Shown piece after piece: positions 39 through 45,747 of a stretch of DNA of 64,000 nucleotides. Numbering within the stretch: the first letter of the stretch is position 1; every line of letters begins with the position of its first letter. Source of the DNA: Brachypterus glaber (lineage: Eukaryota > Arthropoda > Insecta > Coleoptera > Kateretidae); assembly GCA_958510825.1 (NCBI GenBank), contig OY294049.1:620001-684000 (forward strand). The letters are read 5' to 3'. The translations under genes and the position numbers were made by a program. The notes beneath the pieces were generated by a model, which did no database searches, had not been told where the DNA came from, and worked only from the letters and a program-made list of their open reading frames with translations.

Positions 39-103
<65 letters not shown>

Positions 104-137: not shown

Positions 138-175
<38 letters not shown>
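21..175. repeat. Trinucleotide microsatellites (TTA)n, (CAT)n, (AAT)n
   Basis: Three adjacent trinucleotide tracts: an interrupted TTA run (about 21-104), a CAT run (about 107-128) and an AAT run (about 141-172). They lie in the H1-H2B intergenic spacer downstream of H2B. The same tracts recur at 12106-12260. No coding signal is seen between 173 and the H2B stem-loop, only AT-rich sequence with poly-T runs. Confidence 0.9.
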
Positions 176-592
176 TAATAATAATTATTGTTCGTTATTT
201 TGTAAATCATGATTATTATTTGCAAAACAAAAAAGTTAAAGTCCTACCATATTTGATTCAGGGAAACCGACTTTTAATAGAATTTTCGGAAAGATCGGTA
301 ATTTTAATAAAATTAATCGATTTTTTTTTTTTTACTGTCGATCTTTTCACTATCGATTCTTTTTTTTTCTTTGAATCGATCTTATAGAATCGCAAAAATT
401 CGGTAAAATCTTTTTTTTTAATTTTTCTTTTCTACGCCCAAATTTCTAGAGATTGGTTTGTACTGTACAATTATTAAAAATTAAAAAAAAATCGTAAAAA
501 GTCCAAACGATTTGCAAAAAAAAAAATTAATATTGGTATATGGTAGACTGATGATGACTGGGTAAATGCTTTTTTTTTTTTACAAAAATTGT

Positions 593-608
593 GGTTCTGA
601 AAAGAACC
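593..608 (-). terminator. Histone 3' stem-loop of H2B (unit 1)
   Basis: Reads on the minus strand as GGTTCTTTTCAGAACC: a 6-bp stem with a TTTC loop, the canonical metazoan histone mRNA 3'-end hairpin bound by SLBP. It lies 32 bp past the H2B stop. H4 and H3 carry the identical hairpin. Confidence 0.95.
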
Positions 609-640
609 GTTTTATGATTTATCAGCAGACACAGCACAGC

Positions 641-1012
641 TTATTTCGAGCTGGTGTATTTGGTCACGGCTTTCGTGCCTTCGCTGACGGCGTGCTTGGC
701 CAATTCACCGGGCAACAAAAGACGCACCGCAGTCTGGATTTCCCTACTGGTGATGGTCGATCTTTTGTTGTAGTGAGCCAAACGGGAAGCTTCGGCGGCG
801 ATTCTCTCGAAGATGTCGTTGACGAAGCTGTTCATGATGCTCATGGCTTTGCTCGAGATACCGGTGTCGGGATGTACTTGTTTCAACACTTTGTAAATGT
901 AGATTGCGTACGATTCCTTCCTCCTCTTCTTCTTTTTCTTGTCATTTTTGGAGATGTTTTTCTGGGCTTTTCCGGCCTTTTTGGCGGCCTTTCCGCTAGT
1001 CTTCGGTGGCAT
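641..1012 (-). CDS. H2B: Histone H2B (unit 1)
   Basis: Core histone H2B, 123 residues, partner of H2A in the nucleosome. The reading frame runs on to 1126, but I place the start at 1012, where the protein begins [12 protein letters not shown] as insect H2B does; the extra 38 upstream residues are leader read-through. Visible features are a basic Lys-rich tail, the histone fold from about residue 34 ([13 protein letters not shown]) and the C-terminal AVTKYTSSK with the conserved ubiquitination lysine. It ends in a canonical histone stem-loop. Only about 43 bp of the leader remain upstream: a retrotransposon is inserted at 1068-5912 and separates the ORF from the TATA-like sequence at 5926-5933. 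The protein is intact, but transcription from the native promoter is doubtful. Confidence 0.96.
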
Positions 1013-1055
1013 TCTGTGTCGGTCGAATGCGATGTCGAAAGTAAAAAAAGAGGCA

Positions 1056-1067
1056 CCTTTGGGATCC
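1056..1067. repeat. Target-site duplication, left copy (12 bp)
   Basis: CCTTTGGGATCC, repeated exactly at 5913-5924 on the other side of the retroelement. The bases outside differ, so the duplication is 12 bp. It places the insertion in the H2B 5' leader, 44 bp upstream of the start codon. Confidence 0.9.
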
Positions 1068-1160
1068 ATCATCATCATCAATAGTTTGTTTGGGTCTTTA
1101 AGAGACAGGCGCAGCCTATGGCTCATTTATCTAATAAAATATTTAATCTGAATTGAAAGT

Positions 1161-1260
1161 TGGGGCAGTGAGTCTATGCTCACTGATGCGAGTTGCATCT
1201 GTCATAATTTGGGGGGAGTGAGTCTCTGCTCACTGATGCGAGTTGCATCTGTCATAATTT
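1161..1260. repeat. Two 50-bp tandem repeats with double hairpins in the element's 3' UTR
   Basis: 1161-1210 and 1211-1260 are near-identical. Each contains two adjacent hairpins: AGTGAG/CTCACT (for example 1167-1172 with 1179-1184) and GATGC/GCATC (1185-1189 with 1195-1199). A diverged third copy lies at about 1323-1368, with GTGAG/CTCAC and GATGC/GCATC again. In target-primed retrotransposition the 3' UTR is what the reverse transcriptase binds, so these are candidate recognition structures. Confidence 0.8.
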
Positions 1261-1384
1261 GGCGCTGTGGAGTGGGTGGGAGGGGGATGGGGAGGGATGT
1301 GATAGGGAGAGGAGGGATGTGCGGGAGGAGTGAGACTATCTCACTGATGCTGGGAATGCATCTGTCCTGTATTAGTGGGTACCA

Positions 1385-4132
1385 TTACTGGTTGAGGACG
1401 TTCTTGATCTTTTTGTGAGTGTTGTGTATTTCGTGATCGTAATCTAGAAAGTTTGAAATGAGGGGGTTTGGGTGATCTAAATTGTCTTGTATAAAAGACG
1501 TGCTGTAGCGGATGATTTCCGTTTTTAGGAGGGGCATTTCGAGATCTCTGTGTATCTGGTTGTTCCTCATGAACCAGGGGGCATCGAGGCATATTCTGAG
1601 TGCCTTGTTTTGGAAGGCCTGAAGTTTTGCTGAGAGCGTTTTGTTAAGGGTGATTTTATTCCAGGCTGGGGCTCCGTAAAGAAGTACCGGCTTTAGGGTT
1701 TGGTTGTAGAGAAGAAGTTTGTTTTTAATGGATAGGGGACTCTTTCTGCCTATTAAGGGATAGAGTTTGGAGAGGCGGCAATTTGCTATTTGGAGGGTGT
1801 TTTTGACGTGCTGATCCCACGTCAAGTTTTTGGAGATTGTAATGCCGAGGTATTTGGCATGGTTTTCCCAGTTAATGGGGTGGCCATTTATCTGAATGGG
1901 TTGGGGTGGGCCTCTTCTAATCCTAGAGATTAGGATGCCTTTGGTTTTATTGGCGTTTACTTTGATTTTCCATTTGGAGAACCATTTGATTAGGGCATCC
2001 ATTTGGCGCTGGAGGGCGATATGGATGCGCTGGGGGTTTCTGGCTTTTGCTAGGATGCCGGTGTCATCGGCGAACAGGGCTAGTTCAGTGCCCTGAGTTT
2101 TTGGAATATCTGCCGTAAAGAGGTTGTACAGAAGGGGGGATAGTGGGGAACCTTGTGGAACTCCAGCTCTGATGCGGCGGGTGTTGGACTTACAGTCGCC
2201 TATTTTTATCTGAAAATCTCTGCCTTTGAGGAAGGAGGCTATGAGTTTGGTGATGCCTGGGGGGAGGCCGAGAAAGTGGAGTTTGGCTACAAGACCTTTG
2301 TGCCAAACCTTATCGAAGGCTTTTGCGATGTCCAGGAGGATCAGTCCCGCGGCTTCGCGCCTATTTAGTCCGTCCGTTACAGAGTCTACCAGGCGAGCTA
2401 CCTGGTGGACTGTGGAGTGTCTGCTTCGGAAGCCGAATTGCTCATTTGGAAGGAGATTTAGTTCTTCAACTAGAGTTTGAAGTCTGGTTAGTATGACTTT
2501 CTCGGCTATTTTGCCTAGGGAGGAAAGGAGGCTTATGGGGCGGTAGCTTTCAGCAAAAGTTGGATTTTGTCCGGGTTTTTTGATTACTATTACGTCTGCG
2601 TTTTTCCAGGGCTTTGGAAAGTGGCGCAGTCTGAGCATTGCGTTAACAATGTTAACGATTTCCATAATGGTTTTCCGGGGGAGTATTTTAAGAATTTTAT
2701 TCGGTATTTGGTCGGGACCGGGGGCTTTCCTTTTTGGGAGATTTTTGATGATGCGTTTGATTTCCTCGGGGGATGTGGGGGTGATAATGTCGTTTTCAAC
2801 TTGGTTAGTGACTCTATTATAGATGTGGTTTATGTCTCTTTCATGCATGAGTTGCTCGTAGTTCTCGTCGTCCGAGTCGGGCTCGGAGTCGGTCTCTGAT
2901 TCGGAGTCGGAGTCGGGGGGGATTGGAGGGTTTGGTTGAAATTGTTTCCGCATTGCGTCAGCAAATGCTTCGGCTTTTTCGGGGGTGGAGTAGACGACTC
3001 CTCTTTCGCCGTGAATTGGGGGCATGCCTCGTTGGTGGTCGAGGGATAGGGTTTTGGCCATTCTCCAAAGTGATCTATCCTGGGGGTTGAGTGACTTTAT
3101 TTTTCCCTCCCAGCGGGAATTTGCTAGTACGTTTAGTCGGTCTTTGACTTCCTGGGTAAGTCTGTTTGCTTCGCGTTTGATATGGGGGTCTTGGAGGGTG
3201 CGTGCACGACGAAGAAGTCGGTTTTTCTCTCTGATTAAGTCTTTGAGATCTCGGGGGAGGTCCTGTGGGTTTTGGATATCTACTTTTTTGATTAATTTGG
3301 CGCTGTCCATTGCGGATTTTATGGTATTGGTGAGGGTGGTTACTGCAATATCTAGTTCTTGGACGGAATTTATTGAATTGATTTTGGTGTTGCTTTCTAG
3401 GAGTTCGGATATATAGGAGAAGTTGTAAACGGTTTTTTTGGTGTGGTTTGCGGTTGGTATGCCTCCTGCCGTGATAATGATTGGAAGGTGGTCGGAGCTT
3501 AGTTCGTGTCTTAGTTCGATGTTAATGTTTAGTGTCGTGTTTTTATACAAAACGATGTCAAGGATATCAGGAAGGCCGTGGCCATAGTGGGTTGGGGAAT
3601 CGGGTGCGGTAACCATTATATGGTTACGTTGTAATATTTCGTAAAGCCTACGGCCGTTGGCCGTAGTTGTTCTAGAGTGCCAAAGGGCGTGTTTGCAATT
3701 CAAGTCTCCGGCTAGGATTGTTGGATGATTGTCGTTAAAGTAGCCTTCGAAGTCGGCGGGTCTGACCTCCTTATTTGGGGGTTTGTAGAGGGACACGATC
3801 CTGAATTTGGAATTGTCGTGCATGTTGACGAATATGGAGGTAGTTTCGACTTGGTCGCTTTGTGTGGGGGGCGCATGAAGAAGATCGTGAGATATGTGTT
3901 TTTTGATATAGATTGCTGTGCCTCCTTTGCGGTCCTGGAGTCTATCGTTACGGTAGCAGGAATAGTTGGGTATGGTACCCCTATGATGTGGTTTAAGACC
4001 AGTCTCTTGGATGAGGGCTATATCTATTTGATTTTCGTGTAGAAATTCTATGAGTTCCGGTTTTTTTGAATTGAGGCTATCAGCGTTCCAGGTGACTATT
4101 TTAAGGGCTCTGGGTTTTGTTTGTCTAGACAT
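1385..4132 (-). CDS. Jockey-like ORF2: AP endonuclease and reverse transcriptase (unit 1)
   Basis: 915 residues, apparently intact. The N-terminal APE-type endonuclease shows WNADSL near the start, IQETG, GDLNCKH (about residue 140) and SSDHLP (about 210), matching the catalytic Asn, Glu, Asp/Asn and Asp-His positions. An acidic Asp/Glu/Ser-rich linker precedes the reverse transcriptase. The RT shows KAPGPDQIP, YRPISLLSSL, FGFRSRHST, LDIAKAFDKVW (about 600), AGVPQGSPLSP (about 655) and LFADDTG (about 687), so the metal-binding aspartates are present. The C-terminus is typical of Jockey ORF2, with no RNase H. Its ATG overlaps the ORF1 stop (ATGTCTAG, 4125-4132), a layout known for termination-reinitiation in other non-LTR elements. 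Confidence 0.95.
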   Translation of the reverse strand: MSRQTKPRALKIVTWNADSLNSKKPELIEFLHENQIDIALIQETGLKPHHRGTIPNYSCYRNDRLQDRKGGTAIYIKKHISHDLLHAPPTQSDQVETTSIFVNMHDNSKFRIVSLYKPPNKEVRPADFEGYFNDNHPTILAGDLNCKHALWHSRTTTANGRRLYEILQRNHIMVTAPDSPTHYGHGLPDILDIVLYKNTTLNINIELRHELSSDHLPIIITAGGIPTANHTKKTVYNFSYISELLESNTKINSINSVQELDIAVTTLTNTIKSAMDSAKLIKKVDIQNPQDLPRDLKDLIREKNRLLRRARTLQDPHIKREANRLTQEVKDRLNVLANSRWEGKIKSLNPQDRSLWRMAKTLSLDHQRGMPPIHGERGVVYSTPEKAEAFADAMRKQFQPNPPIPPDSDSESETDSEPDSDDENYEQLMHERDINHIYNRVTNQVENDIITPTSPEEIKRIIKNLPKRKAPGPDQIPNKILKILPRKTIMEIVNIVNAMLRLRHFPKPWKNADVIVIKKPGQNPTFAESYRPISLLSSLGKIAEKVILTRLQTLVEELNLLPNEQFGFRSRHSTVHQVARLVDSVTDGLNRREAAGLILLDIAKAFDKVWHKGLVAKLHFLGLPPGITKLIASFLKGRDFQIKIGDCKSNTRRIRAGVPQGSPLSPLLYNLFTADIPKTQGTELALFADDTGILAKARNPQRIHIALQRQMDALIKWFSKWKIKVNANKTKGILISRIRRGPPQPIQINGHPINWENHAKYLGITISKNLTWDQHVKNTLQIANCRLSKLYPLIGRKSPLSIKNKLLLYNQTLKPVLLYGAPAWNKITLNKTLSAKLQAFQNKALRICLDAPWFMRNNQIHRDLEMPLLKTEIIRYSTSFIQDNLDHPNPLISNFLDYDHEIHNTHKKIKNVLNQ

Positions 4133-5591
4133 TTTGGGGGCCTAGATTGGGTAATTGAAGGGAGCCAAAAGCCTGCATGAAGCTGGCGAATTCTTGCATG
4201 AAGGTGTGGATTTTTGAAATTTGGGATTGATCAAAAATATTGGGGGGATTTGCACTGGGACCTGGGGCTGCCTTGGGTTGTTGTGGGGTGGCGGCGTTGG
4301 TTGCCTTTTGGGCGTAGGAGATGCCCGGGGTGAATTTTTGGGTTGGGGGTGTGACCCTTGTACGGGTTGGAGCGATGTTTGATGGGTGTTTGGGGCATTT
4401 ATGATAGTTTGCCGTGTGGGGGCCCAGGCAGTTGGCGCATTTTGCGTCCGTGTGACGGGGTTTTTCACACTTTGTTGTGTGGTGGTCTTGTGCGCATTTT
4501 ACGCATTTGGCCGGGGCGTTGCAATTGGCCTGGGAGTGGCCGAAGAGTTGGCATTTGTGACATTGCCTGAATTTGGGTTTATAGGTCTGGCTTTCGACCT
4601 TTATGACTAGGTGTAGAAGCCTAGTCTCTTTAAATATGGGGTGCTGTTGTCCTGTCACCTTGGGAAGGATGACTAGGATCAGGGGCATGGGGGTCTTGTC
4701 TTTAGTGCGCGTCATTCTCGCGACTGACGTGGGGAGGTAGCCACGCTCGATAAGAGCGGCTTGGACGTCTGCGACGTCTATCTGGGTGGGGATTCCCCGG
4801 ATTACGGCGTGGATTGCCTTGTCCTCCGGGAGGGTAAAACTATGATAGGGAATTTTTTCGGTGTCTAAGTGCCTAGTGACTTTGCGGAAGTCGTCACTGG
4901 TCTGGGTGCGAATTTGCACTCCTTCGGAGGTATTTTTCGCGTGGAGGATGTTTACTTTTTGGGAGTTGAAGTGGCGGGACAAGGCTAGCCATTTTTCAGG
5001 GGCTCGAATGATGATGGGGGGGATTTTGGGGGTTTTGTGGGCTTCCTGGTCGGGGGGGGTTCCTGGGCCAGTAGCTTGGGTTTTTGGGTTTACAGGGGCC
5101 GTAACGGGGGGTTGGGGCCCTGAGCCGGAGGGGTTAGCGACTTCTTCGGAGGCAGTCGCTTTGCCGGGGGTTTTTTGGGTCTTAGCGGGTTTTTCTTCTA
5201 GGTCTGAATTTAATTTGTGTTTCCTTCTGCGCCGGTTTAAGCGCTTGCGCGGGGAGGCAAGGGGGGACCGGACTGAGTCCGAATCAGTCTCTACTACGGA
5301 CATGTCCGTTTCGAAATGATCGGGGGCATCGGAGAGCTCTTGGGTGGGAGTTTGGGTTTTTTGGGATAAGAGTGTCCCTATTTGAGAGGAGAGGCGGGAA
5401 ATTTCCTCGCGGAGTCCATTGATGGTCTCGTTTGCGGTGGCTAGTTGTGTCTGAAGGAATACGAGCTGATTTTTATGTGATTCAGCCTGGATTTTATAGT
5501 GCTCTGTCTGGGCCTTGATTTGATCTTGGAAGTAGTCTGACATTTGTTGGTTCGGGAAGTTTGCCATGGTGGCGTCGATATTTTCAGCCAT
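4125..5591 (-). CDS. Jockey-like ORF1: gag-like RNA-binding protein (unit 1)
   Basis: 488 residues. After a short N-terminus comes a predicted coiled coil (about residues 20-75, Gln/Glu/Leu-rich), then an acidic Ser-rich stretch, a basic cluster (RKRLNRRRRKHK) and a Pro-rich linker. An RRM-like/PRE_C2HC-type region follows (about 195-330). Cysteine-histidine knuckles follow at about 340-400 (CHKCQLFGHSQANC, CVKCAQDHHTTKC, CANCLGPHTANYHKC). This is the standard domain order of Jockey-clade ORF1, which packages element RNA. It starts with a true ATG at 5591 after a 321-bp leader. Confidence 0.93.
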   Translation of the reverse strand: MAENIDATMANFPNQQMSDYFQDQIKAQTEHYKIQAESHKNQLVFLQTQLATANETINGLREEISRLSSQIGTLLSQKTQTPTQELSDAPDHFETDMSVVETDSDSVRSPLASPRKRLNRRRRKHKLNSDLEEKPAKTQKTPGKATASEEVANPSGSGPQPPVTAPVNPKTQATGPGTPPDQEAHKTPKIPPIIIRAPEKWLALSRHFNSQKVNILHAKNTSEGVQIRTQTSDDFRKVTRHLDTEKIPYHSFTLPEDKAIHAVIRGIPTQIDVADVQAALIERGYLPTSVARMTRTKDKTPMPLILVILPKVTGQQHPIFKETRLLHLVIKVESQTYKPKFRQCHKCQLFGHSQANCNAPAKCVKCAQDHHTTKCEKPRHTDAKCANCLGPHTANYHKCPKHPSNIAPTRTRVTPPTQKFTPGISYAQKATNAATPQQPKAAPGPSANPPNIFDQSQISKIHTFMQEFASFMQAFGSLQLPNLGPQNV

Positions 5592-5912
5592 AGTGGTTTT
5601 TGAATTTCGAAGGGAAAAAATAGAAGTAGTGTTCTCGGGGGCCTGGGTGGCCCCGGGCGGGGGGGGGGTGTAGTGTTAAGCACTAATTGTTAGTGGTTGG
5701 GGTCTCAGGGAACCTTTAACACACCAAACCGCCAGCCTCAGCGGTTCGTGGGAATTGGCTTAAGTCCACAGTGTGAAAAGGGCTGCAACACTTAGCAAGC
5801 AAGCTTACAAGTGAGCATATGTTAGTTAGAATAATTATATACCAAAATAATCTTACTCAATGGAAATCTGCTGGGCGACGTCTGACCTCTTCACTGTCAC
5901 TCACTCGACTCT

Positions 5913-5924
5913 CCTTTGGGATCC
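5913..5924. repeat. Target-site duplication, right copy (12 bp)
   Basis: CCTTTGGGATCC, matching 1056-1067. It lies just downstream, in the H2B sense, of the TATA-like element at 5926-5933. Confidence 0.9.
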
Positions 5925-5925
5925 G

Positions 5926-5933
5926 TTTTAAAC
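5926..5933 (-). promoter_or_regulatory. Candidate H2B TATA element, now cut off from H2B
   Basis: TTTAAAAC on the minus strand (within GTTTAAAACGG). In the unoccupied site it would sit about 60 bp upstream of the H2B ATG, similar to the spacing of the H1 and H3 TATA boxes from their ATGs. The retroelement now puts 4.86 kb between them. The assignment as TATA is inference. Confidence 0.5.
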
Positions 5934-5996
5934 GCTCGCATCTAACATGGCCACGCCCCCGAACTATCGGTCTCGGGGATTGGTGGGGTTAGAGTC

Positions 5997-6004
5997 GATA
6001 AATA
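5997..6004 (+). promoter_or_regulatory. H2A TATA-like box
   Basis: GATAAATA followed by GG, 79 bp upstream of the H2A ATG. The H4 promoter has the same ATAAATAGG element, which supports it being real. Confidence 0.65.
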
Positions 6005-6076
6005 GGAGGTCGAATAAAATTTTGGCCATATTATCATTAACATTTGCTCGTGTAAGGTGTTACTGAACTAAACTAA

Positions 6077-6457
<381 letters not shown>

Positions 6458-6506
6458 ACTGTTGGAGAATCATCATCAAAAAAAAAAACACACAACAGCA
6501 TAGAAC

Positions 6507-6522
6507 GGCCCTTCTCAGGGCC
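6507..6522 (+). terminator. Histone 3' stem-loop of H2A (unit 1), variant loop
   Basis: GGCCCTTCTCAGGGCC: a perfect 6-bp stem, but the loop is TCTC where the other histone genes here have TTTC. Confidence 0.9.
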
Positions 6523-6592
6523 ACAATTTGTTTACTGTATAAAAAGAATTTACTGCTTCCGTAGTGTGTTGTTCAAGTGTAGTAGGTATATG

Positions 6593-6900
6593 CCGTACAT
6601 ACGGTACACTTAGTGTGTGAGTGATGTCACGAATATCGGTGACGTACGTCCACTCGGTAGTGTTTGATTTGGACTGTTTACCGTAACACACGGTAATTAC
6701 TGTTTGTCTGCCACCGTACATACGGTGTTTGTTGTGCACAAAGATATAGTATTCACGGTACTTGGTTTTATGGATATTTACCGTACACACGGCACTTGGT
6801 AGTGTTCACCGTACACACGGTGAGGTGATTAGTGTCTAACACCGTACGTACGTCAGTACGGTGTTTTTTCACGAATATAGTGTTCACCGTACACACGGTA
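6593..6900. repeat. Cluster of seven CCGTAC-ACGG palindromes between H2A and 5S
   Basis: Short near-palindromes built on CACCGTACACACGGTG lie at 6593-6604, 6678-6696, 6712-6727, 6781-6792, 6807-6822, 6838-6864 (extended 10-bp stem AACACCGTAC/GTACGGTGTT) and 6885-6900. Spacing is irregular (about 15-85 bp), unlike a satellite. Half sites (CACGGTACTTGG) also occur. The role is unknown; dimeric-protein binding sites or a decayed inverted-repeat array are possible. The cluster recurs at 18678-18985. Confidence 0.85.
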
Positions 6901-7404
6901 CTTTTTTTTGTGTTTGTAAGTGCTTGCCAGAAGTGATTGATAAGAAGTCACAAGCAAGTCCAAACGAGCCGAATAGGTGCCGCCTCTTCGAGGTGAGTCT
7001 TAGATATAAGGATGCACGTCGAACGAACTGGTATCTAGAAGAACTAAAAAAAAAAATACCGCCGCCAACAAAATAGTGCTTTCCCCTGTTAAATCAAAAA
7101 CGAAAACTTTGTTTTTTTTTAAAAAAAGCCTACAACTTTGGATAATCAATCAACCTATGTTCAAAATTTCAAGTCTTTAGCCCGAAGCGTTCTTGAGTTC
7201 TCGTGGTCACAAATTTCCCGGACACACAGACAGACAGAATTTTTTTGTAATTTTACGGAAATCATATTTTTTTGGATATAAAAACTCCGGAAACGTAAAA
7301 AAAAGCGTTAAATTTTTTTTTCGAAATTGATCGGCAGTCGACCTGTTAAGACATCTCCTTTCGTTCTTCTTCAATTACAATCCAACTCGAAATTTGAAGA
7401 AAAA

Positions 7405-7440
<36 letters not shown>

Positions 7441-7593: not shown

Positions 7594-7713
7594 GGCAACG
7601 ACCATACCACTTTGAGAATGCCAGTTCTCGTCCGATCACTGAAGCCAAGCAAAGTCGGGCGCGGTTAGTACTTGGATGGGTGACCGCTTGGGAACACCGC
7701 GTGCCGTTGCCCC
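7594..7713 (+). rRNA. 5S rRNA: 5S ribosomal RNA gene inside the histone unit
   Basis: Recognised from the conserved 5S sequence. GGCAACGACCATACCAC at the 5' end pairs with CGTTGCC at 7705-7711 to close helix I. CTCGTCCGATCACTGAAG and the internal control region follow: a box-A-like AAGCCAAGCAAAGTCGGGC around 7642-7660, an intermediate element GGATGGGTG, and box C ACCGCTTGGGAACACC. A T6 pol III terminator lies at 7714-7719. The length of about 118-120 nt matches animal 5S. Promoter boxes and terminator are intact, so it is a plausible functional gene. It shares the + strand with H2A and H3. Unit 2 is cut before this point, so its 5S copy is not in the window. Confidence 0.95.
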
Positions 7714-12085: not shown

Positions 12086-12123
12086 TGAAAAATATTATTC
12101 CGCTTCTATTATTATTATTATTA

Positions 12124-12188
<65 letters not shown>

Positions 12189-12222
12189 GTATCATCATCA
12201 TCATCATCATCATTGTTTTTAT

Positions 12223-12260
<38 letters not shown>

Positions 12261-12677
12261 TAATAATAATTATTGTTCGTTATTTTGTAAATCATGATTA
12301 TTATTTGCAAAACAAAAAAGTTAAAGTCCTACCATATTTGATTCAGGGAAACCGACTTTTAATAGAATTTTCGGAAAGATCGGTAATTTTAATAAAATTA
12401 ATCGATTTTTTTTTTTTTACTGTCGATCTTTTCACTATCGATTCTTTTTTTTTCTTTGAATCGATCTTATAGAATCGCAAAAATTCGGTAAAATCTTTTT
12501 TTTTAATTTTTCTTTTCTACGCCCAAATTTCTAGAGATTGGTTTGTACTGTACAATTATTAAAAATTAAAAAAAAATCGTAAAAAGTCCAAACGATTTGC
12601 AAAAAAAAAAATTAATATTGGTATATGGTAGACTGATGATGACTGGGTAAATGCTTTTTTTTTTTTACAAAAATTGT

Positions 12678-12693
12678 GGTTCTGAAAAGAACC
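12678..12693 (-). terminator. Histone 3' stem-loop of H2B (unit 2)
   Basis: Same hairpin as 593-608. Confidence 0.95.
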
Positions 12694-12725
12694 GTTTTAT
12701 GATTTATCAGCAGACACAGCACAGC

Positions 12726-13097
12726 TTATTTCGAGCTGGTGTATTTGGTCACGGCTTTCGTGCCTTCGCTGACGGCGTGCTTGGCCAATTCACCGGGCAA
12801 CAAAAGACGCACCGCAGTCTGGATTTCCCTACTGGTGATGGTCGATCTTTTGTTGTAGTGAGCCAAACGGGAAGCTTCGGCGGCGATTCTCTCGAAGATG
12901 TCGTTGACGAAGCTGTTCATGATGCTCATGGCTTTGCTCGAGATACCGGTGTCGGGATGTACTTGTTTCAACACTTTGTAAATGTAGATTGCGTACGATT
13001 CCTTCCTCCTCTTCTTCTTTTTCTTGTCATTTTTGGAGATGTTTTTCTGGGCTTTTCCGGCCTTTTTGGCGGCCTTTCCGCTAGTCTTCGGTGGCAT
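12726..13097 (-). CDS. H2B: Histone H2B (unit 2)
   Basis: Second copy, 123 residues, same protein as the unit 1 H2B. The start is placed at 13097 (MPPKTSGK) for the same reason. It too is separated from its TATA-like element, by the retrotransposon at 13153-17997. Thus both H2B genes visible in the window lack their native promoter. Confidence 0.96.
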
Positions 13098-13140
13098 TCT
13101 GTGTCGGTCGAATGCGATGTCGAAAGTAAAAAAAGAGGCA

Positions 13141-13152
13141 CCTTTGGGATCC
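13141..13152. repeat. Target-site duplication, left copy (unit 2)
   Basis: CCTTTGGGATCC, repeated at 17998-18009. The same 12-bp duplication as in unit 1 means both units descend from a single insertion event. Confidence 0.9.
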
Positions 13153-13469
13153 ATCATCATCATCAATAGTTTGTTTGGGTCTTTAAGAGACAGGCGCAGC
13201 CTATGGCTCATTTATCTAATAAAATATTTAATCTGAATTGAAAGTTGGGGCAGTGAGTCTATGCTCACTGATGCGAGTTGCATCTGTCATAATTTGGGGG
13301 GAGTGAGTCTCTGCTCACTGATGCGAGTTGCATCTGTCATAATTTGGCGCTGTGGAGTGGGTGGGAGGGGGATGGGGAGGGATGTGATAGGGAGAGGAGG
13401 GATGTGCGGGAGGAGTGAGACTATCTCACTGATGCTGGGAATGCATCTGTCCTGTATTAGTGGGTACCA

Positions 13470-16217
13470 TTACTGGTTGAGGACGTTCTTGATCTTTTTG
13501 TGAGTGTTGTGTATTTCGTGATCGTAATCTAGAAAGTTTGAAATGAGGGGGTTTGGGTGATCTAAATTGTCTTGTATAAAAGACGTGCTGTAGCGGATGA
13601 TTTCCGTTTTTAGGAGGGGCATTTCGAGATCTCTGTGTATCTGGTTGTTCCTCATGAACCAGGGGGCATCGAGGCATATTCTGAGTGCCTTGTTTTGGAA
13701 GGCCTGAAGTTTTGCTGAGAGCGTTTTGTTAAGGGTGATTTTATTCCAGGCTGGGGCTCCGTAAAGAAGTACCGGCTTTAGGGTTTGGTTGTAGAGAAGA
13801 AGTTTGTTTTTAATGGATAGGGGACTCTTTCTGCCTATTAAGGGATAGAGTTTGGAGAGGCGGCAATTTGCTATTTGGAGGGTGTTTTTGACGTGCTGAT
13901 CCCACGTCAAGTTTTTGGAGATTGTAATGCCGAGGTATTTGGCATGGTTTTCCCAGTTAATGGGGTGGCCATTTATCTGAATGGGTTGGGGTGGGCCTCT
14001 TCTAATCCTAGAGATTAGGATGCCTTTGGTTTTATTGGCGTTTACTTTGATTTTCCATTTGGAGAACCATTTGATTAGGGCATCCATTTGGCGCTGGAGG
14101 GCGATATGGATGCGCTGGGGGTTTCTGGCTTTTGCTAGGATGCCGGTGTCATCGGCGAACAGGGCTAGTTCAGTGCCCTGAGTTTTTGGAATATCTGCCG
14201 TAAAGAGGTTGTACAGAAGGGGGGATAGTGGGGAACCTTGTGGAACTCCAGCTCTGATGCGGCGGGTGTTGGACTTACAGTCGCCTATTTTTATCTGAAA
14301 ATCTCTGCCTTTGAGGAAGGAGGCTATGAGTTTGGTGATGCCTGGGGGGAGGCCGAGAAAGTGGAGTTTGGCTACAAGACCTTTGTGCCAAACCTTATCG
14401 AAGGCTTTTGCGATGTCCAGGAGGATCAGTCCCGCGGCTTCGCGCCTATTTAGTCCGTCCGTTACAGAGTCTACCAGGCGAGCTACCTGGTGGACTGTGG
14501 AGTGTCTGCTTCGGAAGCCGAATTGCTCATTTGGAAGGAGATTTAGTTCTTCAACTAGAGTTTGAAGTCTGGTTAGTATGACTTTCTCGGCTATTTTGCC
14601 TAGGGAGGAAAGGAGGCTTATGGGGCGGTAGCTTTCAGCAAAAGTTGGATTTTGTCCGGGTTTTTTGATTACTATTACGTCTGCGTTTTTCCAGGGCTTT
14701 GGAAAGTGGCGCAGTCTGAGCATTGCGTTAACAATGTTAACGATTTCCATAATGGTTTTCCGGGGGAGTATTTTAAGAATTTTATTCGGTATTTGGTCGG
14801 GACCGGGGGCTTTCCTTTTTGGGAGATTTTTGATGATGCGTTTGATTTCCTCGGGGGATGTGGGGGTGATAATGTCGTTTTCAACTTGGTTAGTGACTCT
14901 ATTATAGATGTGGTTTATGTCTCTTTCATGCATGAGTTGCTCGTAGTTCTCGTCGTCCGAGTCGGGCTCGGAGTCGGTCTCTGATTCGGAGTCGGAGTCG
15001 GGGGGGATTGGAGGGTTTGGTTGAAATTGTTTCCGCATTGCGTCAGCAAATGCTTCGGCTTTTTCGGGGGTGGAGTAGACGACTCCTCTTTCGCCGTGAA
15101 TTGGGGGCATGCCTCGTTGGTGGTCGAGGGATAGGGTTTTGGCCATTCTCCAAAGTGATCTATCCTGGGGGTTGAGTGACTTTATTTTTCCCTCCCAGCG
15201 GGAATTTGCTAGTACGTTTAGTCGGTCTTTGACTTCCTGGGTAAGTCTGTTTGCTTCGCGTTTGATATGGGGGTCTTGGAGGGTGCGTGCACGACGAAGA
15301 AGTCGGTTTTTCTCTCTGATTAAGTCTTTGAGATCTCGGGGGAGGTCCTGTGGGTTTTGGATATCTACTTTTTTGATTAATTTGGCGCTGTCCATTGCGG
15401 ATTTTATGGTATTGGTGAGGGTGGTTACTGCAATATCTAGTTCTTGGACGGAATTTATTGAATTGATTTTGGTGTTGCTTTCTAGGAGTTCGGATATATA
15501 GGAGAAGTTGTAAACGGTTTTTTTGGTGTGGTTTGCGGTTGGTATGCCTCCTGCCGTGATAATGATTGGAAGGTGGTCGGAGCTTAGTTCGTGTCTTAGT
15601 TCGATGTTAATGTTTAGTGTCGTGTTTTTATACAAAACGATGTCAAGGATATCAGGAAGGCCGTGGCCATAGTGGGTTGGGGAATCGGGTGCGGTAACCA
15701 TTATATGGTTACGTTGTAATATTTCGTAAAGCCTACGGCCGTTGGCCGTAGTTGTTCTAGAGTGCCAAAGGGCGTGTTTGCAATTCAAGTCTCCGGCTAG
15801 GATTGTTGGATGATTGTCGTTAAAGTAGCCTTCGAAGTCGGCGGGTCTGACCTCCTTATTTGGGGGTTTGTAGAGGGACACGATCCTGAATTTGGAATTG
15901 TCGTGCATGTTGACGAATATGGAGGTAGTTTCGACTTGGTCGCTTTGTGTGGGGGGCGCATGAAGAAGATCGTGAGATATGTGTTTTTTGATATAGATTG
16001 CTGTGCCTCCTTTGCGGTCCTGGAGTCTATCGTTACGGTAGCAGGAATAGTTGGGTATGGTACCCCTATGATGTGGTTTAAGACCAGTCTCTTGGATGAG
16101 GGCTATATCTATTTGATTTTCGTGTAGAAATTCTATGAGTTCCGGTTTTTTTGAATTGAGGCTATCAGCGTTCCAGGTGACTATTTTAAGGGCTCTGGGT
16201 TTTGTTTGTCTAGACAT
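13470..16217 (-). CDS. Jockey-like ORF2: AP endonuclease and reverse transcriptase (unit 2)
   Basis: 915 residues, same translation as 1385-4132. Endonuclease motifs (GDLNCKH, SSDHLP) and RT motifs (AGVPQGSPLSP, LFADDTG) are intact. Overlaps the ORF1 stop by 8 nt (16210-16217). Confidence 0.95.
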   Translation of the reverse strand: MSRQTKPRALKIVTWNADSLNSKKPELIEFLHENQIDIALIQETGLKPHHRGTIPNYSCYRNDRLQDRKGGTAIYIKKHISHDLLHAPPTQSDQVETTSIFVNMHDNSKFRIVSLYKPPNKEVRPADFEGYFNDNHPTILAGDLNCKHALWHSRTTTANGRRLYEILQRNHIMVTAPDSPTHYGHGLPDILDIVLYKNTTLNINIELRHELSSDHLPIIITAGGIPTANHTKKTVYNFSYISELLESNTKINSINSVQELDIAVTTLTNTIKSAMDSAKLIKKVDIQNPQDLPRDLKDLIREKNRLLRRARTLQDPHIKREANRLTQEVKDRLNVLANSRWEGKIKSLNPQDRSLWRMAKTLSLDHQRGMPPIHGERGVVYSTPEKAEAFADAMRKQFQPNPPIPPDSDSESETDSEPDSDDENYEQLMHERDINHIYNRVTNQVENDIITPTSPEEIKRIIKNLPKRKAPGPDQIPNKILKILPRKTIMEIVNIVNAMLRLRHFPKPWKNADVIVIKKPGQNPTFAESYRPISLLSSLGKIAEKVILTRLQTLVEELNLLPNEQFGFRSRHSTVHQVARLVDSVTDGLNRREAAGLILLDIAKAFDKVWHKGLVAKLHFLGLPPGITKLIASFLKGRDFQIKIGDCKSNTRRIRAGVPQGSPLSPLLYNLFTADIPKTQGTELALFADDTGILAKARNPQRIHIALQRQMDALIKWFSKWKIKVNANKTKGILISRIRRGPPQPIQINGHPINWENHAKYLGITISKNLTWDQHVKNTLQIANCRLSKLYPLIGRKSPLSIKNKLLLYNQTLKPVLLYGAPAWNKITLNKTLSAKLQAFQNKALRICLDAPWFMRNNQIHRDLEMPLLKTEIIRYSTSFIQDNLDHPNPLISNFLDYDHEIHNTHKKIKNVLNQ

Positions 16218-17676
16218 TTTGGGGGCCTAGATTGGGTAATTGAAGGGAGCCAAAAGCCTGCATGAAGCTGGCGAATTCTTGCATGAAGGTGTGGATTTTT
16301 GAAATTTGGGATTGATCAAAAATATTGGGGGGATTTGCACTGGGACCTGGGGCTGCCTTGGGTTGTTGTGGGGTGGCGGCGTTGGTTGCCTTTTGGGCGT
16401 AGGAGATGCCCGGGGTGAATTTTTGGGTTGGGGGTGTGACCCTTGTACGGGTTGGAGCGATGTTTGATGGGTGTTTGGGGCATTTATGATAGTTTGCCGT
16501 GTGGGGGCCCAGGCAGTTGGCGCATTTTGCGTCCGTGTGACGGGGTTTTTCACACTTTGTTGTGTGGTGGTCTTGTGCGCATTTTACGCATTTGGCCGGG
16601 GCGTTGCAATTGGCCTGGGAGTGGCCGAAGAGTTGGCATTTGTGACATTGCCTGAATTTGGGTTTATAGGTCTGGCTTTCGACCTTTATGACTAGGTGTA
16701 GAAGCCTAGTCTCTTTAAATATGGGGTGCTGTTGTCCTGTCACCTTGGGAAGGATGACTAGGATCAGGGGCATGGGGGTCTTGTCTTTAGTGCGCGTCAT
16801 TCTCGCGACTGACGTGGGGAGGTAGCCACGCTCGATAAGAGCGGCTTGGACGTCTGCGACGTCTATCTGGGTGGGGATTCCCCGGATTACGGCGTGGATT
16901 GCCTTGTCCTCCGGGAGGGTAAAACTATGATAGGGAATTTTTTCGGTGTCTAAGTGCCTAGTGACTTTGCGGAAGTCGTCACTGGTCTGGGTGCGAATTT
17001 GCACTCCTTCGGAGGTATTTTTCGCGTGGAGGATGTTTACTTTTTGGGAGTTGAAGTGGCGGGACAAGGCTAGCCATTTTTCAGGGGCTCGAATGATGAT
17101 GGGGGGGATTTTGGGGGTTTTGTGGGCTTCCTGGTCGGGGGGGGTTCCTGGGCCAGTAGCTTGGGTTTTTGGGTTTACAGGGGCCGTAACGGGGGGTTGG
17201 GGCCCTGAGCCGGAGGGGTTAGCGACTTCTTCGGAGGCAGTCGCTTTGCCGGGGGTTTTTTGGGTCTTAGCGGGTTTTTCTTCTAGGTCTGAATTTAATT
17301 TGTGTTTCCTTCTGCGCCGGTTTAAGCGCTTGCGCGGGGAGGCAAGGGGGGACCGGACTGAGTCCGAATCAGTCTCTACTACGGACATGTCCGTTTCGAA
17401 ATGATCGGGGGCATCGGAGAGCTCTTGGGTGGGAGTTTGGGTTTTTTGGGATAAGAGTGTCCCTATTTGAGAGGAGAGGCGGGAAATTTCCTCGCGGAGT
17501 CCATTGATGGTCTCGTTTGCGGTGGCTAGTTGTGTCTGAAGGAATACGAGCTGATTTTTATGTGATTCAGCCTGGATTTTATAGTGCTCTGTCTGGGCCT
17601 TGATTTGATCTTGGAAGTAGTCTGACATTTGTTGGTTCGGGAAGTTTGCCATGGTGGCGTCGATATTTTCAGCCAT
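16210..17676 (-). CDS. Jockey-like ORF1: gag-like protein (unit 2)
   Basis: 488 residues, same translation as 4125-5591: coiled coil, basic cluster, Pro-rich linker, RRM-like/PRE_C2HC region and C-terminal zinc knuckles. Confidence 0.93.
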   Translation of the reverse strand: MAENIDATMANFPNQQMSDYFQDQIKAQTEHYKIQAESHKNQLVFLQTQLATANETINGLREEISRLSSQIGTLLSQKTQTPTQELSDAPDHFETDMSVVETDSDSVRSPLASPRKRLNRRRRKHKLNSDLEEKPAKTQKTPGKATASEEVANPSGSGPQPPVTAPVNPKTQATGPGTPPDQEAHKTPKIPPIIIRAPEKWLALSRHFNSQKVNILHAKNTSEGVQIRTQTSDDFRKVTRHLDTEKIPYHSFTLPEDKAIHAVIRGIPTQIDVADVQAALIERGYLPTSVARMTRTKDKTPMPLILVILPKVTGQQHPIFKETRLLHLVIKVESQTYKPKFRQCHKCQLFGHSQANCNAPAKCVKCAQDHHTTKCEKPRHTDAKCANCLGPHTANYHKCPKHPSNIAPTRTRVTPPTQKFTPGISYAQKATNAATPQQPKAAPGPSANPPNIFDQSQISKIHTFMQEFASFMQAFGSLQLPNLGPQNV

Positions 17677-17997
17677 AGTGGTTTTTGAATTTCGAAGGGA
17701 AAAAATAGAAGTAGTGTTCTCGGGGGCCTGGGTGGCCCCGGGCGGGGGGGGGGTGTAGTGTTAAGCACTAATTGTTAGTGGTTGGGGTCTCAGGGAACCT
17801 TTAACACACCAAACCGCCAGCCTCAGCGGTTCGTGGGAATTGGCTTAAGTCCACAGTGTGAAAAGGGCTGCAACACTTAGCAAGCAAGCTTACAAGTGAG
17901 CATATGTTAGTTAGAATAATTATATACCAAAATAATCTTACTCAATGGAAATCTGCTGGGCGACGTCTGACCTCTTCACTGTCACTCACTCGACTCT

Positions 17998-18009
17998 CCT
18001 TTGGGATCC
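17998..18009. repeat. Target-site duplication, right copy (unit 2)
   Basis: CCTTTGGGATCC matching 13141-13152. Confidence 0.9.
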
Positions 18010-18081
18010 GTTTTAAACGCTCGCATCTAACATGGCCACGCCCCCGAACTATCGGTCTCGGGGATTGGTGGGGTTAGAGTC

Positions 18082-18089
18082 GATAAATA
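18082..18089 (+). promoter_or_regulatory. H2A TATA-like box (unit 2)
   Basis: GATAAATA, same as 5997-6004. Confidence 0.65.
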
Positions 18090-18161
18090 GGAGGTCGAAT
18101 AAAATTTTGGCCATATTATCATTAACATTTGCTCGTGTAAGGTGTTACTGAACTAAACTAA

Positions 18162-18542
<381 letters not shown>

Positions 18543-18591
18543 ACTGTTGGAGAATCATCATCAAAAAAAAAAACACACAACAGCATAGAAC

Positions 18592-18607
18592 GGCCCTTCT
18601 CAGGGCC
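18592..18607 (+). terminator. Histone 3' stem-loop of H2A (unit 2), variant loop
   Basis: GGCCCTTCTCAGGGCC, same TCTC loop as unit 1. Confidence 0.9.
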
Positions 18608-18677
18608 ACAATTTGTTTACTGTATAAAAAGAATTTACTGCTTCCGTAGTGTGTTGTTCAAGTGTAGTAGGTATATG

Positions 18678-18985
18678 CCGTACATACGGTACACTTAGTG
18701 TGTGAGTGATGTCACGAATATCGGTGACGTACGTCCACTCGGTAGTGTTTGATTTGGACTGTTTACCGTAACACACGGTAATTACTGTTTGTCTGCCACC
18801 GTACATACGGTGTTTGTTGTGCACAAAGATATAGTATTCACGGTACTTGGTTTTATGGATATTTACCGTACACACGGCACTTGGTAGTGTTCACCGTACA
18901 CACGGTGAGGTGATTAGTGTCTAACACCGTACGTACGTCAGTACGGTGTTTTTTCACGAATATAGTGTTCACCGTACACACGGTA
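18678..18985. repeat. Seven CCGTAC-ACGG palindromes (unit 2)
   Basis: Same cluster as 6593-6900. Confidence 0.85.
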
Positions 18986-19489
18986 CTTTTTTTTGTGTTT
19001 GTAAGTGCTTGCCAGAAGTGATTGATAAGAAGTCACAAGCAAGTCCAAACGAGCCGAATAGGTGCCGCCTCTTCGAGGTGAGTCTTAGATATAAGGATGC
19101 ACGTCGAACGAACTGGTATCTAGAAGAACTAAAAAAAAAAATACCGCCGCCAACAAAATAGTGCTTTCCCCTGTTAAATCAAAAACGAAAACTTTGTTTT
19201 TTTTTAAAAAAAGCCTACAACTTTGGATAATCAATCAACCTATGTTCAAAATTTCAAGTCTTTAGCCCGAAGCGTTCTTGAGTTCTCGTGGTCACAAATT
19301 TCCCGGACACACAGACAGACAGAATTTTTTTGTAATTTTACGGAAATCATATTTTTTTGGATATAAAAACTCCGGAAACGTAAAAAAAAGCGTTAAATTT
19401 TTTTTTCGAAATTGATCGGCAGTCGACCTGTTAAGACATCTCCTTTCGTTCTTCTTCAATTACAATCCAACTCGAAATTTGAAGAAAAA

Positions 19490-19526
<37 letters not shown>
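18986..19526. other. H2A downstream spacer, truncated at poly(A)
   Basis: Colinear with 6901-7436; no gene seen. Ends in a 32-A run, after which unrelated repeats begin. Confidence 0.7.
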
Positions 19527-31302: not shown

Positions 31303-31315
31303 TATTAAATAGTAA
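31303..31315. repeat. 13-bp target duplication, left copy
   Basis: TATTAAATAGTAA, repeated at 33128-33140. The single uninterrupted site is seen in the 3' LTR at 45556-45568. Confidence 0.9.
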
Positions 31316-31391
31316 GGACAGAAATTTTTAATTTTAAACAAAATTATAAAAATATTAATTTATTATTCCATCAATCTATTTTCTAATCATC

Positions 31392-31464
31392 GTACAGAGT
31401 GATATTGGTAGACTGACAGTTTCGGGCTGCTGGCCCTCTTCAGTACCAAGAGTCAACTCTGCAC
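31392..31464 (-). ncRNA. Type I hammerhead ribozyme, copy 1
   Basis: Reverse complement of the structure detailed for 33023-33095: core CTGAAGA and GAAA, stems I-III all paired, predicted cleavage between 31411 and 31410. Confidence 0.88.
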
Positions 31465-31745
31465 GCTGATTAAGAAAACGTTTTTAGACTTTACTCGCAA
31501 AAGGAATATAGCCATTAGATTGATGTAGACTTGTGCGCCATCTATTTCTAGATGTAGACAACTACTCATACCTCTCCTTATCTGGAGACTTTGAATGGTA
31601 GCAAGTTGAAGACTTGTGTGTCTCAAGCACATAGTACCACTAACGGGTGGTTAGACGTAAAATTAGTAAGGACAGAAATTTTTAATTTTAAACAAAATTA
31701 TAAAAATATTAATTTATTATTCCATCAATCTATTTTCTAATCATC

Positions 31746-31818
31746 GTACAGAGTGATATTGGTAGACTGACAGTTTCGGGCTGCTGGCCCTCTTCAGTAC
31801 CAAGAGTCAACTCTGCAC
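31746..31818 (-). ncRNA. Type I hammerhead ribozyme, copy 2
   Basis: Same 73-nt structure displaced by 354 bp. Cleavage at this and the neighbouring copy would release a 354-nt linear RNA. Confidence 0.88.
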
Positions 31819-32099
31819 GCTGATTAAGAAAACGTTTTTAGACTTTACTCGCAAAAGGAATATAGCCATTAGATTGATGTAGACTTGTGCGCCATCTATT
31901 TCTAGATGTAGACAACTACTCATACCTCTCCTTATCTGGAGACTTTGAATGGTAGCAAGTTGAAGACTTGTGTGTCTCAAGCACATAGTACCACTAACGG
32001 GTGGTTAGACGTAAAATTAGTAAGGACAGAAATTTTTAATTTTAAACAAAATTATAAAAATATTAATTTATTATTCCATCAATCTATTTTCTAATCATC

Positions 32100-32172
32100 G
32101 TACAGAGTGATATTGGTAGACTGACAGTTTCGGGCTGCTGGCCCTCTTCAGTACCAAGAGTCAACTCTGCAC
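32100..32172 (-). ncRNA. Type I hammerhead ribozyme, copy 3
   Basis: Same 73-nt structure, 354 bp from copy 2. Confidence 0.88.
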
Positions 32173-32453
32173 GCTGATTAAGAAAACGTTTTTAGACTTT
32201 ACTCGCAAAAGGAATATAGCCATTAGATTGATGTAGACTTGTGCGCCATCTATTTCTAGATGTAGACAACTACTCATACCTCTCCTTATCTGGAGACTTT
32301 GAATGGTAGCAAGTTGAAGACTTGTGTGTCTCAAGCACATAGTACCACTAACGGGTGGTTAGACGTAAAATTAGTAAGGACAGAAATTTTTAATTTTAAA
32401 CAAAATTATAAAAATATTAATTTATTATTCCATCAATCTATTTTCTAATCATC

Positions 32454-32526
32454 GTACAGAGTGATATTGGTAGACTGACAGTTTCGGGCTGCTGGCCCTC
32501 TTCAGTACCAAGAGTCAACTCTGCAC
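32454..32526 (-). ncRNA. Type I hammerhead ribozyme, copy 4
   Basis: Same 73-nt structure, 354 bp from copy 3. It is the last one before the inversion point at 32710/32711. Confidence 0.88.
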
Positions 32527-33022
32527 GCTGATTAAGAAAACGTTTTTAGACTTTACTCGCAAAAGGAATATAGCCATTAGATTGATGTAGACTTGTGCGC
32601 CATCTATTTCTAGATGTAGACAACTACTCATACCTCTCCTTATCTGGAGACTTTGAATGGTAGCAAGTTGAAGACTTGTGTGTCTCAAGCACATAGTACC
32701 ACTAACGGGTAAACTGTCAGTCTACCAATATCACTCTGTACGATGATTAGAAAATAGATTGATGGAATAATAAATTAATATTTTTATAATTTTGTTTAAA
32801 ATTAAAAATTTCTGTCCTTACTAATTTAACGTCTAACCACCCGTTAGTGGTACTATGTGCTTGAGACACACAAGTCTTCAACTTGCTACCATTCAAAGTC
32901 TCCAGATAAGGAGAGGTATGAGTAGTTGTCTACATCTAGAAATAGATGGCGCACAAGTCTACATCAATCTAATGGCTATATTCTTTTTGCGAGTAAAGTC
33001 TAAAAACGTTTTCTTAATCAGC

Positions 33023-33095
33023 GTGCAGAGTTGACTCTTGGTACTGAAGAGGGCCAGCAGCCCGAAACTGTCAGTCTACCAATATCACTCTGTAC
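33023..33095 (+). ncRNA. Type I hammerhead ribozyme, inverted copy
   Basis: Full hammerhead fold read directly. Outer stem I is GTGCAGAG (33023-33030) with CTCTGTAC (33088-33095). An internal loop has 7 nt on one side (33031-33037) and 5 nt on the other (33083-33087). Inner stem I is TTGGTA (33038-33043) with TACCAA (33077-33082). Core CTGAAGA is at 33044-33050. Stem II is GGGC/GCCC with loop CAGCA (33051-33063). GAAA lies at 33064-33067. Stem III is a 3-bp ACT/AGT with loop GTC. The cleavage nucleotide is C33076. The very short stem III is typical of animal type I hammerheads, which often work as dimers; tandem copies would allow that. Confidence 0.9.
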
Positions 33096-33127
33096 GATGA
33101 TTAGAAAATAGATTGATGGAATAATAA

Positions 33128-33140
33128 TATTAAATAGTAA
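33128..33140. repeat. 13-bp target duplication, right copy
   Basis: TATTAAATAGTAA, followed by the resumed LTR sequence TTAGATTTTTATATT, as in the 3' LTR at 45569. Confidence 0.9.
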
Positions 33141-43824: not shown

Positions 43825-45743
43825 TTTAACAGAGGGGTCATCCTGTATATATTGGGTATTTTTATTTTATTATTATTCTAAGAAAGTGAGAACCTTATTG
43901 TTCTAAACAAGAAGTTTGTTTATTTTATATTTAGTACTCTTAAATTTTGCGTCATTGAGGCATTTACATTAAAAGGGTGTACATTTTTATTAGACTAATT
44001 AAGTGGTAATCTTTCTTTAATAATGTTGTTTAAGATACTGGCAACACTAGGCAACACGGTTTCTTGACCTGATTGGAGTCATATGTTTTTTAACTAATTT
44101 TGGGTCACTGAAACCGAATCTGGCCTCAGAATATTTCTATTACCTAAGTTGAGAAAAATGAGATAAAAATGTTAAAAAATCATTATTTTACGCTCTTTTG
44201 TTCTAAAATCATAGGAGATAAAAATATTCCGAGGACAAATCTAGATTCGGCGACTCATAATTAGTTAAAAAATACCCAACTTAAAACATGGAAACTTTAA
44301 ATTCATAGGTAGAATAAATAGGGATATTATGGAAAAAATATTTAAAAAAAAATGGATAATGCCACAAAATTTGAAAAATAAAACTTGATGGATATTTTTT
44401 AAGGTCAAATTTGGATTCTGTGCCTTTAAATTGATAAGAAAAATATATTTTTTTGGGCTCGGGAAAAAAGTTTACACTGTGTACTTTAATTTTGTTTCTT
44501 TTTCATTTATTTACTTTTTACGAACAAACTAAGCAAAATAAAAAAATATTTGTATAAATATTTTTGTAGAGAGTTTTATATTCTACTAATTAAATAAAAA
44601 CTTTATACAGATTTGATAGTTTTTCCACAAAAGAGCAGTAAAGGAAACTCTGCACTTTCATTTAAAGCTTTTAATTTTTCGCGTACTTACTCTGACAATT
44701 GAGTTCCTTGTATTATTTTTAATATACCCTAAAATTTTCAAAATCCTACTCTTTTTTTTAAGATTTTGAAAAAAAAAACGTCATTATTTCACGGACTTAT
44801 ATCTCAAAAATTTTAGGTGCTGAAATTTTTCTGTTAGATTCGGTTTCTACGCCCTCGAATTAGTAAGAAAAATTTACTTTCCGATCGGGGCACAAAAAAA
44901 GTTGAGATTTGTTGCCTTAGGGACTTTTTGTAAAAATGGTTTTTTCTACTAAGCAATGACGTGAAAATCAATAAAATGTAGAAGTAGTTTTTTAATCATT
45001 TCTCTTAATTTAATTTAAATTCATTTTCAGCAATTTAAAGTATTTTTTCAATTCACTTTGATAGTAAACTCTTCAGATATATTTACATTAATAGTTTTAT
45101 GACTTTTTATATCGGCATCTCTGGGAAGTGACATTTTGCCTGTTTTGAGTTATGGTTCAAATGGGATTCGGAAATATGGAGTTGTCTAGTAAAGTTGGGT
45201 CTTAGGGGAATTTTAGAATTAACGTAATATGTGAAAATTTAAAGTAAAATTTAGAGTAATATGTGAAAATTTAAAGTAAAATTTAGAGTCGCGCGTATAT
45301 ATATATATCTGAAGGGTAAAAATGCTATTTATTCATAATTTTTTCATTTCAAATTAAAATATTTTGTTGTTTTTTTATTTGTTTTTAACTTTTCATTTTT
45401 CTTTCATTAAATTATTTTAATTGTTTTTTAATTCTTTCGTTTTATTGGCAAGATATATTTTAATTAATTTAAAATATATTTGAAGTTTTTTACCTTTCGC
45501 ATATCTACAGTTTGTGTTATAAAAAGTCTTCGCTGGAATAAGAAAGTCAGATAAGTATTAAATAGTAATTAGATTTTTATATTAACATATGTAAGCATAT
45601 TTTTGGTGGCTCGCTACCCAAATAGCAAACTTACTGCTATTTGTAATTTGTTACGTCTCCAAATAATAGTGCGTGGTGGTTCTAAATTATTGTCTTAGAT
45701 AATTAATATTTTTGGCTTTAATTGGAACCAACGCGCTATTACA
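43825..45743 (+). repeat. 3' LTR with extra 880 bp and the empty ribozyme site
   Basis: Matches the 5' LTR except for an additional segment (about 44041-44922), a 34-bp tandem duplication near 45223-45288 and scattered changes. It starts TTTAACAG where the 5' LTR has TGTAACAG and ends CTATTACA. TATTAAATAGTAA at 45556-45568 is the uninterrupted target of the hammerhead insertion. Confidence 0.85.
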
Positions 45744-45747
45744 AAAT

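Follow-up and report, generated by a model that had tools for sequence, protein, structure and literature searches.

A hammerhead retrozyme of the beetle Brachypterus glaber with insertion ends that suggest Penelope-like integration

Metazoan non-LTR retrozymes were described by Cervera & de la Pena (2020) as tandem elements with units of 170-400 nt and target duplications of more than 4 bp (PMC7229834). In that description the helper is left between LINEs and Penelope-like elements (PLEs), with PLEs favoured on co-occurrence. Another account states that the helper cannot be deduced from a conserved motif and names PLEs/Terminons as likely (PMC7761336), and according to a third one retrozymes may rely on PLEs (PMC8969392). 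The mover of animal retrozymes is so far a proposal without direct evidence. The insertion ends reported here add structural evidence, obtained purely from the sequence of the genome, and with them the question of the helper becomes testable at the bench.

For PLEs it is described that a purified element cleaves AT-rich targets on both strands and extends both of them, and that reverse transcription starts at two adjacent internal sites, the sequence between them being the genomic “tail” (PMC11167929). The Penelope element of Adineta is reported with head-to-head inverted pLTRs and a 31-bp tail that is optional on one of them (PMC3846280).

The window analyzed by us is a stretch of 64,000 nucleotides of B. 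glaber. Type I hammerheads were searched with a structural descriptor (CUGANGA, stem II of at least 4 bp, GAAA, stem III of at least 2 bp, NUH, stem I of at least 5 bp), which found five complete motifs at positions 31316-33127 and nothing else in the 64-kb window, and 0 matches on both strands of a 6.4 Mb first-order Markov control. This is exactly the number of full hammerheads that the sequence-only reading of this DNA had claimed. Four motifs are located on the minus strand at 31391-31465, 31745-31819, 32099-32173 and 32453-32527 (predicted cleavage between 31411 and 31410, 31765 and 31764, 32119 and 32118, and 32473 and 32472, respectively), with cores starting at 31443, 31797, 32151 and 32505 in exact 354-bp spacing. 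The 354-bp spacing of the direct copies had also been claimed, and it is reproduced by TRF with a period of 354 and 100% matches. The fifth motif is located on the plus strand at 33022-33096, with its core starting at 33044 and predicted cleavage between 33076 and 33077. In all five window hammerheads the predicted cut falls between CTGTCAGTC and TACCAATATC. The layout reads 5'-CGUGCAGAG (stem I, outer) UUGACUC UUGGUA (stem I, inner) CUGAAGA GGGC-CAGCA-GCCC GAA ACU-GUC-AGU C^ UACCAA UAUCA CUCUGUACG.

Other computational views of the motif are less uniform. The lack of a hit to a covariance model had been named beforehand as a refuting outcome, and this outcome was obtained: the Rfam models returned no hammerhead family at the gathering threshold, and none in the 2.1 kb comprising the array when E<=10 was allowed. 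In a fold of the secondary structure only, an alternative pairing of the core reaches -30.7 kcal/mol vs -20.9 kcal/mol for the catalytic layout. With 118 out of 165 identical and 35 distinct sequences, the complete hammerheads of 38 loci vary too little to test covariation. The sequence of stem III (ACUG-U-CAGU) is nearly palindromic, and pairing between two hammerheads was computed at -9.7 kcal/mol; this might resemble the action as dimers that is reported for amphibian retrozymes (PMC7229834). The exact core pattern occurs in 0 viral contigs and 0 bacterial or archaeal contigs of the sets searched.

The array is embedded in retroelement sequence. A BLAST comparison of the window with itself found the same flanks without the array approximately 13 kb away, at 45256-45745 on the plus strand. 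The alignment of both segments reveals the 13-bp target TATTAAATAGTAA, which occurs once in the empty site (45556-45568) and twice around the array (31303-31315 on the left, 33128-33140 on the right). As this duplication flanks the array, and as the second copy of the host retroelement carries an empty site, the array represents a single insertion and not a local satellite. The inserted DNA comprises 1812 bp, and once the duplication is removed its exact ends coincide with the bounds of 31316-33127 given by the sequence-only reading. That reading contained neither the target duplication nor the empty site, and it did not recognize the inverted fifth copy as part of a recurring insertion structure.

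The insertion consists of two arms arranged head-to-head. The long arm (31316-32710, minus strand) holds approximately 3.9 direct units of 354 bp, which are without differences except for the last bases at the outer end; this end corresponds to a site termed B (unit position ~97), where the arm would have been primed. The short arm (32711-33127, plus strand) is inverted, carries two substitutions that are absent from the long arm, and would have been primed at its outer end, site A (unit position ~52). The unit has a length of 354 bp, a GC content of 0.36 and one type I hammerhead, and there is no open reading frame of 120 or more amino acids inside 31316-33127.

Elsewhere in the window, positions 1-7436 and 12086-19521 form a perfect direct duplication of a 7436-bp histone unit (H2B, H2A). 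Between its histone genes lies a LINE that probably belongs to the jockey group; the two open frames of this LINE encode 516 and 918 aa, and its named relatives are nearly all from insects, one being labelled Acinetobacter. The H2A and H3 open frames flank a 5S rRNA gene at 7594-7712, so that histone and 5S genes are linked.

To describe the spread of the element, the 35-nt hammerhead core was searched in the genome of 648,179,424 bases with up to 3 mismatches, leading to 5717 matches (2892+2825), while the reversed pattern gave 0 matches in the same genome. The best 100 of these 5717 matches are all exact; they represent 69 loci spread over 16.1 Mb, and close neighbours among them are arranged 11 times as “-+” and 0 times as “+-”. 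One unit compared to the whole genome has at least 170 matches, of which those listed are 91-100% identical and nearly all 97-100%. The term dispersed mobile element fits the array better than the term satellite array, and the array belongs to a young family of tiny non-coding mobile elements. The metazoan retrozyme suspected in the sequence-only reading is supported. Two further loci deserve mention. Arms of L050 (1544-1858) and L049 have diverged from the young family (by approximately 10% in L050) and perhaps represent an older subfamily with similar anatomy. Positions 1-2705 of L037 (C12:9476300-9481000) contain an 856-bp higher-order tandem, with truncated retrozyme units within one array.

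The anatomy of the insertions was compared at 38 loci, i.e. the window and 37 others drawn from the best-scored unit matches; owing to this choice long, near-identical, young arrays are over-represented. Arms in opposite orientation are present at 33 out of 38 loci, in each case with the sense 3' ends pointing outward (“-+”). The remaining 5 loci (L031, L044, L053, L054, L062) have no inverted arm, and all five end at A. Counting unit positions from the base after the cleavage site, 70 outward 3' ends were scored at the 38 loci: 37 are located at 42-58 (A), 31 at 93-103 (B), with one of these B ends (L037) being an artefact of the locus edge, and 2 elsewhere. The stop at site A (~52) follows GGAATAATAA, the stop at site B (~97) follows CTGTCCTTA.

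The two ends do not combine freely. One A and one B end are found in 30 out of 31 scorable two-ended insertions, including a second insertion in L051 (P = 1.5e-8). Paired ends with a duplication were searched from an A end together with a B end, a design in which A/A and B/B would be missed, so the count of these combinations rests on ends called independently, which gave 29 A/B, 1 A/A and 0 B/B (P = 2.9e-8 against a 50% chance). The 30 A/B insertions, from 29 loci and the second, 94-bp insertion in L051, have target duplications of 11-17 bp with a mean of 13.1. As a control, mismatched pairs of left and right flanks have at least 11 bp in common in 1 out of 870 cases and at least 9 bp in 9 out of 870. 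Exceptions are L039 (A/A), L035 and L049 (one end elsewhere) and L037, which is cut by the locus edge and was left out of the mismatched-pair and cut-site counts. Only one end of an insertion carries the ~45-nt interval from A to B.

A bias was also observed at the cut sites. The second base outward from the duplication is T in 21 out of 30 top strands and 22 out of 30 bottom strands (pooled P = 2.4e-7), and the third base deviates with P = 0.004; the first base is biased through the definition of the maximal duplication. The preference agrees between both cuts, as it would if the endonuclease were symmetric and dimer-like and left 3' overhangs of ~13 nt. In the arms, 29 rows could be parsed (L041 and L047 being absent, the L037 artefact and the 94-bp L051 insertion included). 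One arm has at most 410 nt in 29 out of 29, the other reaches up to 5004 nt, and 17 of the longer arms start at A and 12 at B. At the inner junction the arms overlap by 1-7 bp in 16 out of 29 cases and by 17 bp or more in 4, with no overlap in 9. In L041, L047, L055 and L061 the sense arms begin at unit positions 287-288 at the inner junction, just upstream of stem I of the hammerhead, a pattern that would result if reverse transcription or the joining of strands frequently ended at this point.

We consider it probable that the array arose when a metazoan non-LTR retrozyme was inserted into the window via RNA circles and a reverse transcriptase (RT) plus GIY-YIG endonuclease encoded by a PLE. 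Multimeric transcripts would cut themselves at the hammerheads into RNAs of 354 nt, and a host ligase could close these into circles. The PLE-encoded RT and GIY-YIG endonuclease would then produce a staggered break in the target, and each target 3' end might prime one cDNA on the circle, one of them at A and the other at B. One arm may roll round the circle several times while the other stops early. Finally the two cDNAs would be joined, often via a short microhomology, and gap filling would lead to the target duplication. The ends provide clear structural evidence from which insertion by PLE-type machinery may be read.

A more specific version can be put forward tentatively, with chances that we place slightly short of even. 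Two subunits of a PLE RT dimer could sit on one circular RNA in a fixed register, defining the A start and the B start and each using one target strand by its 3' end, so that both arms come from one circle and one of them rolls round many times. The insertion ends suggest in this respect a rule for PLE integration, namely one RT start per target strand, which would explain why the tail is optional. If true, it would explain why the PLE “tail” is found at only one of two inverted pLTRs.

Exact tandem copies, inverted arms and target duplications might also be seen if unequal exchange had spread ordinary satellite DNA, or in a DNA transposon with terminal inverted repeats. We give this explanation hardly any weight, since the 100 of 5717 core matches listed are distributed over 69 loci and 16 Mb, an empty site is present, and the tips are not inverted repeats of each other, with the ~45 nt between A and B at one end only. 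As the main mechanism, satellite exchange or a transposon of this kind is refuted by the dispersal, the empty site and the unlike tips; later exchange may have occurred inside arrays. Target-primed reverse transcription by a LINE with an L1-like twin priming has more in its favour and still appears distinctly improbable to us. It could account for the target duplications of 11-17 bp, for 5' inversions with a microhomology of 1-7 bp at 16 out of 29 inner junctions and for the AT-rich targets, and the window does contain LINE open frames. However, preferred internal sites mark the two outer ends, an A end combined with a B end in 30 out of 31 insertions, and 0 out of 70 scored outward ends lie at the 3' end that the hammerhead would make (unit position 354). 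Twin priming also does not agree with a cut preference that is the same on both strands, nor with an inversion in 33 out of 38 loci, as inversions concern a minority of L1 insertions.

Another question regards the template of the PLE-type reaction. Instead of a circle, an array already present could have supplied it as a linear, multimeric transcript, with hammerhead cleavage being incidental, a reading that we regard as unlikely, though less so than the involvement of a LINE. It agrees with PLE insertion in vitro, for which cleavage is described as not needed (PMC11167929). A comparison of 119 full copies, 44 of them identical to the window unit, revealed 4 array variants that are fixed, 16 that are partly common and 89 that are single. 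The 16 variants that are common to several copies but absent from others in their array argue for a linear template, as does the ordered pattern of variants in the 14-copy array L042. As from one circle, in contrast, appear the copies of the long arm in the window, without differences except for the last bases at the outer end, and the 4 alleles fixed in all full copies of their own array (L053, L057, L063, L066). Alleles that are rare in this set and common to both arms (43G>T in L063, otherwise found in L049 only, and 11A>T in L066, otherwise in L053 only) indicate a single RNA or a single source for both arms of these two loci. The circular template that we favour would fit the arms with several copies and the starts at a distance from the 3' end made by the ribozyme, and the partly common variants may leave room for linear multimers or later unequal exchange. 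The predicted 354-nt circle folds strongly on itself (-93.3 kcal/mol). The idea that A and B are two arms of one hairpin was dropped, as they are not paired together in this fold.

Regarding the helper, GIY-YIG candidates in the whole genome numbered 419, and at least 31 matches, from the 150 of these that were scored, exceed the cut-off. One PLE copy (L068) carries RVT_1 and GIY-YIG in one frame of 693 residues. Among the matches listed for its protein the named relatives are insect proteins, most relatives carry PF00078, PF28514 and PF26215, and no solved structure was matched by sequence. The helper of the retrozyme is most likely a PLE, because the two internal starts and the head-to-head arms represent the published PLE signature and the genome encodes PLEs with RT and GIY-YIG. 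L068 itself may not be the actual helper, since its comparison with the retrozyme yields only chance-level, mostly AT-rich matches and a simple pattern finds no canonical hammerhead core in it; no L068-like PLE fragment occurs in the 37 loci or the window. On C11, at 22003189, 22008816 and 22011786, three GIY-YIG matches score as the L068 copy does, in the order -, +, +. This trio looks like a head-to-head plus tandem anatomy with an approximately ten-fold larger unit. At the right end of the cluster 58 out of 60 bases equal L068; the match stops at an internal site, 8 nt ahead of where the ORF of L068 starts (one end of one cluster).

Compared to the known systems, the metazoan retrozyme reading agrees with the description in PMC7229834: a short, low-GC, non-coding unit of 354 bp with a type I hammerhead, arranged in dimers to multimers, dispersed in thousands and flanked by target duplications of more than 4 bp. 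By the descriptor a hammerhead is present in every unit, and the unit lies within the 150-450 bp of non-LTR retrozymes. The assignment of the window element to this class is supported, with cleavage and circular RNA being predicted stages. Plant LTR retrozymes, as described in PMC4918200, are likewise non-autonomous and hammerhead-bearing with a proposed circular RNA stage; they differ in that their hammerheads are of type III, LTR machinery is used and the duplications have 4 bp (as given in PMC7229834). The family was compared to known retrozymes by their published description, and within this scope it is matched to no published sequence.

The likeness to PLEs concerns the way of insertion. 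As in PAc of Anolis (PMC11167929) and Penelope of Adineta (PMC3846280), as far as described there, two adjacent internal RT starts surround a “tail”, of 30-40 bp there and ~45 nt here, and inverted head-to-head arms, cutting and extension of both target strands, AT-rich targets and short duplications are common to both; for the retrozyme the two starts, one per inverted arm, may be read from the insertion ends. The duplications of the retrozyme are 11-17 bp long vs 8-10 bp in Adineta Penelope (PMC3846280). Unlike PLEs, the retrozyme codes for no protein, its hammerhead has a stem III and its arms hold several copies of 354-bp units; the RT and GIY-YIG frame of an autonomous PLE is absent from the insertion, which has no long ORF. 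The retrozyme is not a PLE, it is only inserted like one. The recurring two-site, head-to-head footprint also differs from the description of metazoan non-LTR retrozymes in PMC7229834, and titles and abstract openings of the literature searched, a scope outside of which most subscription journals fall, contain no report of it. The retrozyme class itself is already known, and the insertion footprint is the new part.
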